Below are positions 23,394 to 60,412 of a stretch of DNA of 64,000 bases, in pieces. The notes beneath the pieces were generated by a model, which worked only from the letters and a program-made list of their open reading frames with translations, was not told the origin of the DNA and searched no databases. The DNA comes from an uncultured Bacilli bacterium (lineage in GTDB: Bacteria; Bacillota_I; Bacilli_A; RF39; UBA660). The position numbers were made by a program, and so were the translations under genes. The stretch's first letter is position 1, and each line of letters starts with the position of its first letter. The stretch covers positions 160,015 to 224,014 of the forward strand of contig CALVIG010000001.1 in NCBI GenBank assembly GCA_944329425.1, in the 5' to 3' direction.

Positions 23394-24701
23394 TTATTGA
23401 TTATTTCTATTTGACCAAAATGATGTATGTGGCTTTTCTGCGTTAATTATTGCTTCATTTGGTTCGATACCTTGAGCACTATTTTGGTTCGGTTCACTTT
23501 GATTAACATTATTTTCTACTACTTGTTGTGAAACATTATTAACAGGTTCTTCAATACTTGGTGTAGAGCTTGGAGCAACGTAACCTTGGTTCATATTATT
23601 CATTAGTGTACTTTGGTTAATATCATTATTTACCATAGGTTGTGAAACGTTGTTAATAGGTTCTTCAGCACTTGGTGTAGCTGGCGTGTCAAAACTTGGA
23701 GCAACATAACCTTGGTTCATATTGTTCATTGATGAACCTTGATTAATATCGTTATTTACCATCGGTTGTGAAACGTTGTTAACTGGTTCTTCAGCACTTG
23801 TTGTAGAGCTTGGAGCAACGTAACCTTGGTTCATATTATTCATTAGTGTACTTTGATTAACATCATTATTTACCATAGGTTGCGAAACGTTGTTAACAGG
23901 TTCTTCAGTGACTGGTGTAGCTGGCGTTTCAAAATTTGGAGCAACATAACCTTGGTTCATATTGCTCATTGATGAACCTTGATTAGCATCATTATTTACC
24001 ATAGGTTGTGAAACGTTGTTAACATGTTCTTCAGTAACTGGTGTAGCTGGCGTTCCAAAGCTTGGAGCAACGTAACCTTGGTTCATATTGTTCATTGGTG
24101 AACTTTGATTAATATCATTATTTGCCATAGGTTGTGAAACGTTGTTAACATGTTCTTCAGCACTTGGTGTAGCTGGCGTTTCAAAGCTTGGAGCAACATA
24201 ACCTTGGTTCATATTGTTCGTATTATTATCAACGATATTTGCATCAACATTTTGTACGGATTGTTCTAGATTAGTACTTCCAAAACCTTTATTTTTATCA
24301 ATCATTTGTGCATCAGAAAATGCTAAGATTGGTAAAAAAATGTAAGGTAAGAAAAGCATTCCAACGCTAAATCCCGTAGATTTACCAAATTTTTTGCTAA
24401 CACCATCATACACAACGAATAAAGAATATATTTGTGCTATTGGTACAAATAATAACAAAACATGCCACCATTGTTTTTCTGCTATCTCACACATTACGTA
24501 GTAGTTGTAAAATGGTATTAAAGCTGCCCAACCCGGTTTACCTGCTTTTTTAAATATTTTCCATAATGAAACTATACCAATTACTCCTATTATTATTGAT
24601 ATTATCCACATAATAACCATAAAAACAAACATACCACCAACTATGGAAGAATTTGCAGCATTATATCCATAATACGTATCTACATAATAACTAGTATCCA
24701 T
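23394..24701 (-). CDS. DUF5684-like membrane protein with repetitive Asn/Pro-rich tail
   Basis: A 435-residue protein. Residues 20-135 form three or four membrane spans with the segment LWKIFKKAGKPGWAALIPFY, which is typical of a small integral membrane domain also found before signal-peptidase-like or unknown tails (DUF5684, from memory). From about residue 165 a tail of six near-identical units of 38-42 residues follows, each with MNQGYVAPSF, EEPVNNVSQPMVNND and a variable NQ/SS/TL linker. The tail is likely disordered. AGGAGG lies before the ATG. Function unknown. Confidence 0.7.
   Translation of the reverse strand: MDTSYYVDTYYGYNAANSSIVGGMFVFMVIMWIISIIIGVIGIVSLWKIFKKAGKPGWAALIPFYNYYVMCEIAEKQWWHVLLLFVPIAQIYSLFVVYDGVSKKFGKSTGFSVGMLFLPYIFLPILAFSDAQMIDKNKGFGSTNLEQSVQNVDANIVDNNTNNMNQGYVAPSFETPATPSAEEHVNNVSQPMANNDINQSSPMNNMNQGYVAPSFGTPATPVTEEHVNNVSQPMVNNDANQGSSMSNMNQGYVAPNFETPATPVTEEPVNNVSQPMVNNDVNQSTLMNNMNQGYVAPSSTTSAEEPVNNVSQPMVNNDINQGSSMNNMNQGYVAPSFDTPATPSAEEPINNVSQPMVNNDINQSTLMNNMNQGYVAPSSTPSIEEPVNNVSQQVVENNVNQSEPNQNSAQGIEPNEAIINAEKPHTSFWSNRNNQ
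23480..24220 (-). repeat. In-frame tandem repeat, about 126-bp units
   Basis: Six units in the tail of the membrane protein; two units are shortened by 12 bp. Unit length varies only by whole codons, so the reading frame is kept. Such arrays often change copy number between strains. Confidence 0.85.
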
Positions 24702-55737: not shown

Positions 55738-56238
55738 TTATTGGTTAAACATGTCAATAACTTCTGATAAATGTGATATTTCTGGAAAGTCTCCGTTTTC
55801 TGGTTCTTTAACAAACTTTATTCCAATACCAAGTCTTTTTTGCCACTCTTTAATGTTACCAGAATAATCATCAATAAGTATCGCAGCACTTGGGTTTACC
55901 ACGTCTGTTTTTGGAATTTCTTTAGGAACGCTAACAACCGTAACCAGTGGTAAAACCTTATGTAAATACTTTATTTTTTGTACCATTTCGTTAGTTGAAT
56001 TAACGTGTGTTAATATGTACACGTTAAATTTTTTAGATGCACATATTTTCTTTATTTCATTTATGCTATCGTTTATAACGTCCGTTTCTTCGATTAACTT
56101 TTTCCAGTCTAAGTTCCTAAAATACTCCGTTACTTTTTCATAATCATTTTTATCTATTCCTGATTCTTCTAACACCTTATAAGTTTTACTCATGGTATCT
56201 AATATAACTCCATCAAAGTCTATGTATAATTGTTTCAT
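55738..56238 (-). CDS. HAD-superfamily phosphatase, 5'-nucleotidase-like
   Basis: A 166-residue HAD protein with motif I DFDGVILDT at residues 7-15, motif II in YILTHVNST near 95, and motif III/IV near IDDYSGNIKEW at 125. The short cap and the IDDYSGN ending resemble the NT5C/deoxyribonucleotidase group. The substrate is not known. It overlaps the end of the upstream RluA gene by 26 bases. Confidence 0.8.
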   Translation of the reverse strand: MKQLYIDFDGVILDTMSKTYKVLEESGIDKNDYEKVTEYFRNLDWKKLIEETDVINDSINEIKKICASKKFNVYILTHVNSTNEMVQKIKYLHKVLPLVTVVSVPKEIPKTDVVNPSAAILIDDYSGNIKEWQKRLGIGIKFVKEPENGDFPEISHLSEVIDMFNQ

Positions 56239-56890
56239 CTTTTAATTCCTCCCATTTTGGTAATAATTTAAAACATAATCTTTCTTTCGTTACCGGATGA
56301 TTAAACGCCAGTAAATAAGCATAAAGCCTTATTTGCTCATTATTTTCTTTACCATAAAGTTGATCACCGTATAAAGGATAACCTAAGGCTTTAAATTGAA
56401 GCCTTATTTGGTGGTGACGACCCGTTATTAAATTAACTTTAACAATCGTATTATTTTTATAATAACCGATTACCTCATAATTAAGTTTGGATAACTTACC
56501 ACCAGTAAAACCTTTATCCACAACCTTACTTATACCAGTTTTACTATCCTTATATAAATAATTTACTAATTCATCTTTTTCTTTTTTTAATATACCATCT
56601 AATACAGCAACGTAAGTTTTGTTAAACTCATGATTTTTTATTTGCTCATTTAACCTTTTAGCAGCCTTAGAAGTTCTTGCAAACACCATAACACCACCCA
56701 CTGGTCTATCTAGCCGGTGCACGAGCCCAATGTAAACGTTTCCAGGTTTATCATACTTTTCTTTAACATAACTTTTAACCATGGTAAGTAAATCCATATC
56801 TCCCGTTACATCACTTTGAGATAAAACGTTAGGCTTTTTTTCCACCACGATTAAATGGTTATCTTCATATAAAACATTTAATTTATTCAT
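56213..56890 (-). CDS. RluA-type pseudouridine synthase
   Basis: A 225-residue single-domain RluA enzyme without an S4 domain. The catalytic Asp lies in HRLDRPVGGVMVFARTSKA near residue 58; the later GRHHQIRLQFKALGYPLYGD is the RluA-family signature. It changes uridine to pseudouridine in rRNA or tRNA; the target base is not known. A second RluA protein is at 61526-62197. Confidence 0.9.
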   Translation of the reverse strand: MNKLNVLYEDNHLIVVEKKPNVLSQSDVTGDMDLLTMVKSYVKEKYDKPGNVYIGLVHRLDRPVGGVMVFARTSKAAKRLNEQIKNHEFNKTYVAVLDGILKKEKDELVNYLYKDSKTGISKVVDKGFTGGKLSKLNYEVIGYYKNNTIVKVNLITGRHHQIRLQFKALGYPLYGDQLYGKENNEQIRLYAYLLAFNHPVTKERLCFKLLPKWEELKDETIIHRL

Positions 56891-56921: not shown

Positions 56922-57203
56922 TTAATCTTCATACATAACGTCCATTAATGATAAATCTTCACCTAGTTCATCAACGTAGTTTTCACCTAATTTTTGTTTT
57001 AGTTTTTCAAATCTTTTTACAAATTCATCTTTACTCATTAAAAACAAATCCAAATATAATAAGAATAAATCTTTTGAATAATAAATACCGTTATCTAATA
57101 AATATTTATTAATACTAGCTACGTTATTTATATCTATTTTTTTTATTAGTTCATCATCAAAATTTTCTTTTAGTACTTTAATATCTAATTCATCTATATT
57201 CAT
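56922..57203 (-). CDS. Hypothetical 93-residue acidic protein
   Basis: I do not recognise the family. The protein is helical and acidic with Leu-rich stretches (DLFLLYLDLFLMSKDEFVKRF). It starts 12 bases after the stop of the 16-repeat protein, with AGGAGA 9 bases upstream, so the two are probably co-transcribed and may act together. It shares the helical Leu/Asp character of the N-terminal part of that protein. Confidence 0.55.
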   Translation of the reverse strand: MNIDELDIKVLKENFDDELIKKIDINNVASINKYLLDNGIYYSKDLFLLYLDLFLMSKDEFVKRFEKLKQKLGENYVDELGEDLSLMDVMYED

Positions 57204-57214
57204 ATACTTATCTC

Positions 57215-59437
57215 CTATTTTACCATTACTTTTTCCACGTAAGGATATTTAATCATTAATTCTTTTATATCTAAGTTATATTTCTTTTTTAATACGTTTG
57301 GTGCTTTACCAAAAATAGAATTCAATTTACAATCTTCGGTTATTAAAGGAATCTCATTATCAATAAGATAATTAATTAACGCGTAATTTTGACTAGGTGA
57401 TAATATTAAATAACTGGTTGTTAAGTATTCATCAATACCATATTCTTCTGCCATTTTAAATAATATAGGTAACTTTTTTAACATTGATTTACTTTTAGCT
57501 ACTATGATAGAGGTTAATAACCTTTTATATTTTTCTTCTTGCCAATATGGGAGATTTAATAACAAACGAATATCTTCTATGTTAGAATGTGCTAACACTT
57601 CTGAAGTAAATAGTTCAGGATGCTCCTTAAACTCTTTACTGTTTATTATTGCTTGAATCTTTTCTATGTTAGACTTCGCTAACACAGTTGAAGTGAATAG
57701 TTCAGGATGCTCCTTAAACTCTTTACTGTTTATTATCGCTTGAATCTTCTCTATGTTAGACTGCGCTAACACTTGTGAAGTAAACAACTCTGGATGTTCC
57801 TTATACTCTTTACTATCTATTATCGCTTGAATCTTCTCTATGTTAGACTGTGCTAACACAGTTGAAGTAAATAGTTCAGGATGTTCTTTATACTCTTTAC
57901 TGTTTATTATCGCTTGAATCTTCTCTATGTTAGACTGCGCTAACACAGTTGAAGTAAATAGTTCAGGATGCTCCTTAAACTCTTTACTGTTTATTATTGC
58001 TTGAATCTTTTCTATGTTAGACTGCGCTAACACTTGTGAAGTAAACAACTCTGGATGTTCTTCAAACTCTTTACTATCTATTATCGCTTGAATCTTTTCT
58101 ATGTTAGACTGTGCTAACGTTGTTGAAGTAAACAATTCTGGATGCTCCGTATACTCTTTACTGTTTATTATCTCTTGAATCTTTTCTATGTTAGAATGCG
58201 CTAACGTACTTGATGTAAACAACTCAGGATGGTCTTTAAACTCTTTACTGTTTATTATCTCTTGAATCTTTTCTATGTTAGAATACGCTAACACTTGTGA
58301 AGTAAACAACTCGGGATGCTTTTTATACTCCTTACTATTTATTACCTTTTGAATCTTTTCTATGTTAGACTGCGATAACGTTGTTGAAGTAAATAGCTCT
58401 GGATGCTCTTTAAACTCCTTACTATCTATTATTGCTTGAATCTTTTCTATGTTAGACTTTGCTAACGTTGTTGAGGTGAACAACTGAGGATGTTCTTTAT
58501 ACTCCTTACTATTTATTATCGCTTGAATCTTTTCTATGTTAGACTGCGCTAACACAGTTGAAGTAAATAGTTCAGGATGCTCCTTAAATTCATTACTGTT
58601 TATTATCGCTTGAATCTTTTCTATGTTAGACTTTGCTAACACTTGTGAAGTAAACAACTCGGGATGTTCTTCAAACTCTTTACTGCTTATTATCGCTTGA
58701 ATGTTTTCTATGTTAGATTCCGCTATCGTTGTTGAGGTGAATAGTTCGGGATGCTCTTTATACTCTTTACTGTTTATTATCGCTTGGACCTCTTCTATAT
58801 TAGAATAAGCTAACGTTGTTGAGGTGAATAGTTCGGGATGCTCTTTATATTCTTTACTGTTTATTATCGCTTGGACCTCTTCTATATTAGAATAAGCTAA
58901 CGTTGTTGAGGTGAATAGTTCGGGATGCTCTTTATATTCTTTACTATTTATTATTTTTTTAATATCATCAACGCTATTTCTTCCTATAGATATAGAAATA
59001 ATATCTTGTTTTTTAAAGTTAGGAATATTTAAATTTTCTATTCCTATTATTTTTTCTTTTGGTACCCTTAATATACTTGTAACTTTGTTAATAACTTTTG
59101 TTCCATAATTTCTTTCAACGTAATTATAAGTATCAATTAACTGCTTTGAATCCGTACTTAGTACGTGTAAGCATGACTCAACGCTAGAAAATTTTATATT
59201 CTTCTCTTTTAAAAACTTAACGTTATTTTTTATATCTCCAACGTTCATATACAAAATACTAGGACATTTTTCTATATAAGCTTTGTTAATTTTTAGTTCA
59301 TTTATTAAATAATTTAAAGTATCATAAATTTCCTTATACTCTCCATAAGTTAAAATATTATCATTAATATTTAAAACTTTTTCTACGTTCAACCCATATT
59401 TTTCCAATAACTTATTTAGCTCAAATTCTCCTATCAT
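57215..59437 (-). CDS. Sixteen-repeat solenoid protein, unknown function
   Basis: A 740-residue cytosolic-looking protein. About 175 N-terminal residues are helical (LNYLINELKINKAYIEKCPS, VKFLKEKNIKF). Then 16 tandem 29-residue units follow, each like SKEFKEHPELFTSTVLAQSN plus IEKIQAIIN, with small changes at a few positions (Y/F, T/Q/E, K/Q/H). The final 120 residues are non-repetitive. Two helices per unit would form a solenoid. The DNA repeats are 87 bp and nearly the same. Operon neighbours: an RlmI-like methyltransferase 22 bases upstream and a 93-residue protein downstream. Family not recognised. Confidence 0.7.
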   Translation of the reverse strand: MIGEFELNKLLEKYGLNVEKVLNINDNILTYGEYKEIYDTLNYLINELKINKAYIEKCPSILYMNVGDIKNNVKFLKEKNIKFSSVESCLHVLSTDSKQLIDTYNYVERNYGTKVINKVTSILRVPKEKIIGIENLNIPNFKKQDIISISIGRNSVDDIKKIINSKEYKEHPELFTSTTLAYSNIEEVQAIINSKEYKEHPELFTSTTLAYSNIEEVQAIINSKEYKEHPELFTSTTIAESNIENIQAIISSKEFEEHPELFTSQVLAKSNIEKIQAIINSNEFKEHPELFTSTVLAQSNIEKIQAIINSKEYKEHPQLFTSTTLAKSNIEKIQAIIDSKEFKEHPELFTSTTLSQSNIEKIQKVINSKEYKKHPELFTSQVLAYSNIEKIQEIINSKEFKDHPELFTSSTLAHSNIEKIQEIINSKEYTEHPELFTSTTLAQSNIEKIQAIIDSKEFEEHPELFTSQVLAQSNIEKIQAIINSKEFKEHPELFTSTVLAQSNIEKIQAIINSKEYKEHPELFTSTVLAQSNIEKIQAIIDSKEYKEHPELFTSQVLAQSNIEKIQAIINSKEFKEHPELFTSTVLAKSNIEKIQAIINSKEFKEHPELFTSEVLAHSNIEDIRLLLNLPYWQEEKYKRLLTSIIVAKSKSMLKKLPILFKMAEEYGIDEYLTTSYLILSPSQNYALINYLIDNEIPLITEDCKLNSIFGKAPNVLKKKYNLDIKELMIKYPYVEKVMVK
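57568..58960 (-). repeat. Sixteen tandem 87-bp in-frame repeats
   Basis: Unit spacing measured between neighbouring GTTAGA marks is 87 bp (for example 57581 to 57668). Units differ mostly at a few codons and some blocks of two or three units are almost identical, indicating recent duplication or gene conversion. Confidence 0.9.
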
Positions 59438-59458: not shown

Positions 59459-60325
59459 TTACTTATTTTCCCATTTTCCATATATACCGCAAGGTAATAC
59501 TAAATTGCTATCAGTCATAGGAAGTCCTATCTCCCCGCTAGTTATTTTACCACTAACTTTTTTGTTAACCGTTAATAACAAAACGTTTTCTAACACTTTA
59601 GGTGATAAACCTGTTGTATAAGAATTAATTAAAAAGAATAAAGGATTATCACTTAATACCTGAACGCACAATTCAACTAATTCATACAAGCTTTCTTCTA
59701 TGTTCCAAACCTCACCATTAGCGCCTCTTCCAAATGAAGGTGGATCCATTACGATGGCATCATACTTATTGCCTCGCCTTATTTCTCTTTTAACAAACTT
59801 AATTACGTCATCTACGATAAACCTAACGTACCTATCGGTTAAATTAGATGATGCAATGTTTTCTTTAGCCCAAGCAATCATGCCCTTAGATGAATCAACG
59901 TGAACAACGTCAGCCCCGGCATAAGCGCAGGCAACCGTTGCACCACCAGTGTACGCAAATAAATTAAGCACTTTTATTTTACGATTACTTTTCTTTATTT
60001 TATCGATCATGTAATCCCAGTTAACCGCTTGTTCTGGAAATAAACCAGTGTGCTTAAAACCCATTTGCTTTATGTTAAAAGTTAGGTCTTTGTACTTTAT
60101 TTGCCAATTTTCAGGAACGCTGTTTACGTTTTCCCAGTGTCCCCCACCTTTATTGCTACGGATGTATTTGGCATCTAAGTTTTTCCATTTTTCTTTAAAA
60201 GTTTTTTCTTTCCATATTATCTGTGGATCAGGTCTACTTAATACGTACTTTCCCCAACGCTCTAGTTTCATCCCAGAAGCCATATCAAGTAACTCATAAT
60301 CTTTCCATTCATTTGCTAATTTCAA
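59459..60325 (-). CDS. Class I SAM-dependent rRNA methyltransferase, RlmI-like
   Basis: About 288 residues. SAM-binding motif I VLNLFAYTGGATVACAYAGA near residue 128 with VDSSKGMIAWAKEN, and the DPPSFGRG motif IV near 200, the layout of RlmI/RlmK-type RNA methyltransferases that modify 23S rRNA. The PUA domain found in full RlmI is not visible at the N-terminus. A TTG start at 60325 is favoured because GAGGTGG lies 5 bases upstream. The gene precedes the repeat protein by 22 bases. Confidence 0.88.
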   Translation of the reverse strand: MKLANEWKDYELLDMASGMKLERWGKYVLSRPDPQIIWKEKTFKEKWKNLDAKYIRSNKGGGHWENVNSVPENWQIKYKDLTFNIKQMGFKHTGLFPEQAVNWDYMIDKIKKSNRKIKVLNLFAYTGGATVACAYAGADVVHVDSSKGMIAWAKENIASSNLTDRYVRFIVDDVIKFVKREIRRGNKYDAIVMDPPSFGRGANGEVWNIEESLYELVELCVQVLSDNPLFFLINSYTTGLSPKVLENVLLLTVNKKVSGKITSGEIGLPMTDSNLVLPCGIYGKWENK

Positions 60326-60412
60326 GATAACCACCTCTTTAATAATTTTATCATTAATGTAATTAATTTAAAAGAACTATGTATTTTTTTGTAAACTATT
60401 TTCATTATTAAA

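Follow-up and report, generated by a model that had tools for sequence, protein, structure and literature searches.

The window analysed here, a stretch of 64,000 nucleotides (nt) on contig CALVIG010000001.1 of an uncultured Bacilli bacterium, contains a gene for a 740-amino-acid (aa) protein built around sixteen near-identical 29-residue repeats and, next to it, a gene for a small acidic protein. By analogy with characterised systems, we posit, at a probability of about 0.5, that the two form a module in which a modular nucleic-acid-reading solenoid works with the small protein as its partner, and that this two-gene module represents a divergent, pTERF-like bacterial branch of the mTERF superfamily. 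The features of the module are as follows.

57215..59437, minus strand: repeat-protein gene, 740 aa (mTERF-like N-domain, 16 x 29-aa array and conserved C-tail)
58973..59437, minus strand: N-domain, aa 1-155, with the mTERF motif IEKCPSILYMNVGDIKNNVKFL (P; hydrophobic at +3, +10, +17)
57560..58951, minus strand: 16 tandem 87-bp units, aa 163-626, with hypervariable unit positions 16 and 20
57218..57559, minus strand: C-domain, aa 627-740, with degenerate repeats and the conserved C-tail
57263-57421, minus strand: C-tail, aa 673-725, common to sister repeat proteins and HA helicases
56922..57203, minus strand: small acidic partner gene, 93 aa, mTERF-like

Evolutionarily, the relationship to mTERF is carried by the N-domain, which holds CPSILYMNVGDIKNNVKFL and, within it, the diagnostic proline with L+3, I+10 and L+17 of the mTERF motif (P8/L11/L18/L25). 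Searched against 177,635 PDB sequences, a profile of this domain gave 15 matches, mTERF4 structures included, of which 13 human mTERF chains ranked first (top E 4e-5); the 42-residue motif profile by itself had no PDB match. Eleven of 18 N-domains also matched the Pfam mTERF family (PF02536), all below its cut-off. Of 193 genomes from the bacterial order searched with Pfam mTERF, 15 had members above the cut-off (E to 5e-22 per stretch), as against none of 14 control genomes, and full-length mTERF proteins of the same bacterial family reached E 1e-54, 3e-45, 7e-41 and 2e-25, with small proteins adjoining several of them also matching mTERF (E 1.7e-9, 3e-5). Compared by hhalign with these bacterial mTERFs, thin alignments gave weak matches (E 0.0012, 0.027) in which C-tail aligned to C-tail. 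The clear bacterial mTERF proteins lie in contigs of metagenome-assembled genomes (MAGs; L177:3686-4807, L179:3567-6704, L181, L176 and L178, Pfam E to 1e-54), some of them in paralogue clusters and some with near-identical tandem units of ~35 aa. The window protein resembles the eukaryotic mTERF family (PF02536: MTERF1, MTERF3, MTERF4) in its N-domain motif, in profile and modest modelled fold similarity and in its predicted three-helix unit, and differs from it in being bacterial, in falling below the Pfam cut-off, in its acidic array of near-identical 29-aa units and in having an encoded small partner.

Structurally, AlphaFold2 models of the window protein (predicted local distance difference test, pLDDT, 76; predicted template-modelling score, pTM, 0.43) and of a 3-unit orthologue (pLDDT 78, pTM 0.63) both have three short helices per unit. 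Foldseek placed DNA-bound human MTERF1 first for the orthologue model (E 3.6e-3, TM-score 0.34), followed by TAL (transcription activator-like) effectors, whereas the TAL effector PthXo1 and BurrH, both on DNA, led for the window protein (E 1.2e-4). The first-pass annotation, which had proposed a helical solenoid of TALE, PPR or mTERF style and had recommended structure prediction, a comparison of variable positions between strains and a search for homologs with other repeat counts, is well supported in kind: the models match MTERF1 and TAL-effector structures, the profile of the N-domain finds mTERF first, and the variable positions 16 and 20 have equivalents in sister repeat families. TAL effectors and the BurrH/BAT-type TALE-likes, the Foldseek neighbours of the models, share with the window protein a superhelical array and two specificity-like residues at or near the end of the first helix of the unit, but the window units are of 29 aa (versus 33-35), have three modelled helices (versus two) and are without the LTPxQVVAIAS-type sequence. 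No TALE match by sequence was found in Pfam or the PDB, the likeness being in fold only, and PPR and PUF were absent among Pfam matches up to E 1.

The repeat-protein gene starts with an ATG preceded by a good Shine-Dalgarno sequence, and its array, read from the translation and recovered by Tandem Repeats Finder (15.9 copies, score 1682, without indels), has exactly 16 units, each of 29 aa (87 bp) and all in perfect register, as had been counted initially. The accompanying claim of recent expansion or conversion stands in part. Some unit pairs are only 1-5 of 87 nt apart, and nucleotide identity of units is 83% within one protein versus 69% between orthologues, a pattern of concerted evolution in which units are apparently homogenised inside each protein; most pairs, however, are 10-25 nt apart, and differences between units amount to 0.44 at synonymous sites (pS) and 0.10 at non-synonymous sites (pN), a ratio of 0.24. 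Because pS is high relative to pN, the uniformity of the array is, judging from these substitutions, maintained largely by purifying selection; some units are evidently fresh duplicates, the array as a whole being older. Library scans gave matches inside the array to CoA_transf_3, formyl-CoA transferase and PHROG entries, which appear to arise by chance from short stretches resembling single units, and no Pfam or NCBIfam match within the array was above its curated cut-off. On/off phase variation through repeat number is rejected, since the 87-bp units stay in frame.

Further uncultured Bacilli with small genomes have orthologues with other repeat counts, from 3 to 14 units where counted (3 in L013 and in G009, 6 in L011, 12 in G376, and 14 and 10 in the paralogues of G337). 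Of 386 genomes from the same taxonomic family, 44 contained members recognised by the repeat-family profile, and the N-domain profile found almost nothing across the rest of the class. At least four sister repeat types whose ends are similar occur in the same genomes, and one iterated N-domain profile picks up members of all of them together with the small partner.

Type 2 repeat: LKVFEDHPELLTPSAFKKTAPEIEEIV
Type 3 repeat: LPYWNDPKFQPLLTSTIWHSNPTDVKSIL
Type 4 repeat: CKQNNIEITGSVFTKPADEIEKIIEV
Type 5 repeat: CPSILAKGKAQEIEKILTLLES

Paralogues of type 4 form clusters in one genus (L060:1419-12752, L061:2026-13001, L062:1881-10143), reach 1115 aa and are followed by a FabG-like short-chain dehydrogenase/reductase (SDR) gene. 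Long type-5 arrays (CPTILARGKAKEIDTIIKLI) lie at L085:3928-6222 and L086:105-5576, and by eye their C-terminal region resembles a sigma-factor-like helical domain.

Within the window array, residues vary as Y/F at position 6, T/Q/E/S at 16, V/T at 17 and Q/Y/K/H/E at 20, positions 16 and 20 being the most conspicuous. The variation first described at Y/F6, T/Q/E16 and K/Q/H/Y20 is thus confirmed in the window array. Over 106 units of orthologues, non-synonymous differences per unit pair within proteins are highest at position 16 (1.17) and position 20 (0.70), against 0-0.45 elsewhere, with alphabets of T/Q/E at position 16 and H/Y/R/Q/K at position 20. In every repeat type examined, variation within proteins peaks near one equivalent site, which corresponds to window position 20 and is preceded, at a distance of 2-4 residues, by a second variable site (window position 16); in the models, positions 16 and 20 sit on one short helix of the unit. 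For types 2, 3 and 4, the top variable column is the residue directly after the conserved F/W that closes helix 1, and a further variable column lies two residues ahead of this aromatic. The recurrence of such a pair in separately amplified arrays is the strongest sign of a specificity code, although it does not tell a nucleic-acid ligand from a protein ligand. An equation of the variable residues with the base-stacking residues of MTERF1 was dropped, as it is unsupported by the alignment range of the N-domain PDB profile match.

Functionally, we envisage that the 16 units, each modelled as three short helices, would stack between the mTERF-like N-domain and the conserved C-tail, with the resulting superhelix lying along a nucleic acid. 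Each unit could then read a single base, or a few, by means of its residues 16 (T/Q/E) and 20 (H/Y/Q/K/R), as TALE and PPR repeats do, while the partner, itself an mTERF-like fragment, would dock on the solenoid or its tail, and the complex might block or modulate expression or replication of its target. In-frame gain, loss and homogenisation of units would alter the length and sequence of the target and keep the fold.

Several observations weigh against reading the array as a nucleic-acid binder of mTERF descent. The window N-domain scores 13.8 bits against a Pfam gathering score of 23.1, and the array units fail the mTERF motif, P10 and F13 fitting it but position 20 (variable) and Q27 standing at +10 and +17. 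Being below the cut-off, the window protein, in a Pfam scan of which mTERF was not listed, is on sequence grounds a divergent mTERF relative and is not filed as a member. Both AlphaFold2 models were built on thin alignments of 4 sequences, comparison with MTERF1 and TALE gives low TM-scores (~0.3-0.4), and certain designed repeat proteins also match the models; given the low scores and thin alignments, the fold comparison supports a superhelical array but not a detailed pose. The array is also acidic (isoelectric point, pI, 5.13, net charge -28; full 740-aa protein, pI 5.55), as are most other type-1 repeat proteins, whereas true bacterial mTERF relatives have a pI of 9.0-9.3 and most nucleic-acid-wrapping solenoids are likewise not acidic; this acidity argues against nucleic-acid reading and makes a protein-binding role plausible, and hypervariable surface residues mark protein-binding repeats as well.

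These points feed the chief rival of nucleic-acid reading, a tentative but serious alternative in which fold and module are the same but the ligand of the acidic arrays is a protein or peptide array, or they themselves mimic DNA or serve as an acidic decoy, so that positions 16 and 20 would set protein specificity and the basic mTERF relatives would be the nucleic-acid binders. Ankyrin- and TPR-like arrays typically show the same hypervariable-surface pattern. On the other hand, the fold neighbours of the models are nearly all DNA-bound proteins, the narrow polar alphabet of position 16 (T/Q/E) is more like base reading than like a protein-binding surface, and the N- and C-domains of the window protein are basic, unlike its array.

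The mTERF-like solenoid is further characterised by the company it keeps. The 93-aa partner (pI 4.35) is conserved, and in related genomes its gene adjoins 44 of 58 C-tail-bearing proteins, helicases with HA repeats among them, on the same strand, with gaps of -41 to +21 bp between the two genes; several of the tail proteins without a partner of their own are clustered paralogues that share one. C-tail and partner also accompany ResIII-HA helicases, whose HA (helicase-associated) repeats are tandem. These superfamily 2 (SF2) helicases with tandem HA domains (PF04851 and PF03457) have in common with the window protein the C-tail, the adjacent partner and near-identical tandem repeats, but their body is a helicase with HA repeats instead of an mTERF-like solenoid. 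Those with the tail are found at L158:3-4773, L146:2-1780, L159:707-3547, L160:4807-8073, L087 and L088, most with an adjacent partner gene, and two that were scanned have 5 and 7 tandem HA domains. Some genomes encode a coiled-coil protein with a partner-like domain fused to it or next to it; such proteins with an mTERF-like C-terminal part are widespread (L149:4217-6232, L150:2560-4530, L155:2868-4454, L141-L144), the partner domain being fused or encoded immediately downstream, and they may represent the core ancestor of the partner system. At the start of contig L058 (55-564), a partner-like domain is apparently fused in frame behind a release-factor-2-like N-terminal stretch, which might reflect either a joint made in assembly or a genuine insertion into prfB. 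A bolder extension of the nucleic-acid reading, speculative and in our judgement doubtful, is that this gut Bacilli lineage possesses an open-ended repertoire of programmable nucleic-acid readers that recombine, with several mTERF-derived unit types, a two-residue code at one conserved helix and an mTERF-like partner engaged through a C-tail that is also present on HA-repeat helicases; if true, this would be a bacterial equivalent of the mTERF/PPR expansions in organelles and a novel scaffold for programmable binding.

Genomically, the module lies between two RNA-modification-type genes, in agreement with the original description of a gene after an RNA methyltransferase gene and before a small acidic protein (56922-57203).

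59459..60334, minus strand: upstream Methyltrans_SAM gene (PF10672; RlmK/RlmI-like, RNA-methyltransferase-like), conserved flank
56213..56890, minus strand: downstream RluA-family pseudouridine synthase gene, the other flank of the module site

The methyltransferase gene is 21 bp upstream of the repeat gene and the RluA gene 31 bp past the partner gene, a spacing that would suit a ribosomal RNA or ribosome-biogenesis factor paired with the adjacent methyltransferase, in the manner of human MTERF4 and NSUN4, and mTERF4 is among the structures that the N-domain profile matched. We consider such a role quite improbable and reject the methyltransferase link, since in ten species of the same genus the methyltransferase and RluA genes abut directly without the module, and module orthologues elsewhere are flanked by different genes, for instance an SDR gene. 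Three congeners have the module at this site (the window, G009 and G001, where a contig end cuts the repeat gene, adjoining partner and RluA), and two (G015, G017) have a relic, an in-frame fusion between the opening codons of the repeat gene and the final codons of the partner gene. Given this patchiness, the tie to a housekeeping operon suggested by the first-pass annotation falls away: the operon is the address of the module and not its function, and the site is incidental. Relics, module carriers dispersed over the species tree, and a synonymous divergence between window and G009 that equals that of the flanking genes together suggest, from sequence comparison, an old module repeatedly lost as a single unit. 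A viral or plasmid origin was rejected, as viral contigs, phages and plasmids yielded no relatives and no viral fold matched.

The same patchy presence and relics at one site, along with diversifying arrays, an acidic partner that is immediately adjacent and often overlapping, and the occurrence of tail and partner with ResIII-HA helicases, would be compatible with a genetic-conflict module, toxin/antitoxin-like or in defence against mobile elements, in which a large variable effector with the shared C-tail is bound and either restrained or licensed by the small partner. We regard this as possible but rather unlikely, although it can overlap with either binding mode: PADLOC defence models matched neither repeat protein nor partner, the repeat protein is without a catalytic domain, the module is, by its synonymous divergence, not a fresh arrival, and phage or plasmid copies were not found. 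Very improbable, finally, is a host-directed or surface solenoid, that is, an adhesin or injected effector; the lineage is gut-associated and long repeat proteins often serve such roles in bacteria, but no signal peptide or membrane segment is apparent from the sequence, the gene sits within a cytoplasmic housekeeping operon and the fold neighbours are DNA binders. A second array in the window belongs to a 435-aa membrane protein (23394-24701, minus strand) whose C-terminal half is a tandem array (EEPVNNVSQPMVNNDINQSSPMNNMNQGYVAPSF...) with periods of ~126 and 240 bp, of low complexity and rich in asparagine.

Although no known family had been recognised at the outset, the repeat protein has relatives or close analogues in the mTERF superfamily and among the published pTERFs. 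The pTERFs are prokaryotic mTERF-like, DNA-binding proteins (Hu et al. 2024, Nucleic Acids Research, PMC11417379), and pTERF1, from a ruminant-gut Bacillota MAG, is a tandem-repeat mTERF-like protein that binds double-stranded DNA (ACTNNNAGTC) with a dissociation constant (Kd) of 1.87 nM (PMC11417379). By their published description, rather than by sequence comparison, they are the closest known system: like the window protein they are tandem-repeat mTERF-like solenoids of uncultured gut Bacillota with three helices per unit and variable unit number, and differences between units were proposed to set specificity, as in our reading (PMC11417379). Tandem mTERF-like repeats in Bacillota MAGs, a feature of the pTERFs, are what we find here, with 16 units in the window and 3-14 in its orthologues from the lineage Bacilli, compared with 3-11 units in the published proteins (PMC11417379). 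The pTERF section of that paper makes no mention of a partner gene, shared C-tail or helicase fusion (PMC11417379); we found no report of either the co-encoded mTERF-like partner or the shared C-tail, and this branch, its partner and its tail appear undescribed.

Until the pTERF report in 2024, mTERF proteins were held to be eukaryotic. This locus and its relatives bring together, within one bacterial family, unmistakable mTERF proteins (Pfam E 1e-54) and divergent arrays of several types, and they suggest that the specificity code probably lies in two residues of each unit. If nucleic acid is what they bind, the arrays would be candidates for a compact programmable scaffold, and the lineage gives a view of how mTERF arrays evolve outside organelles.
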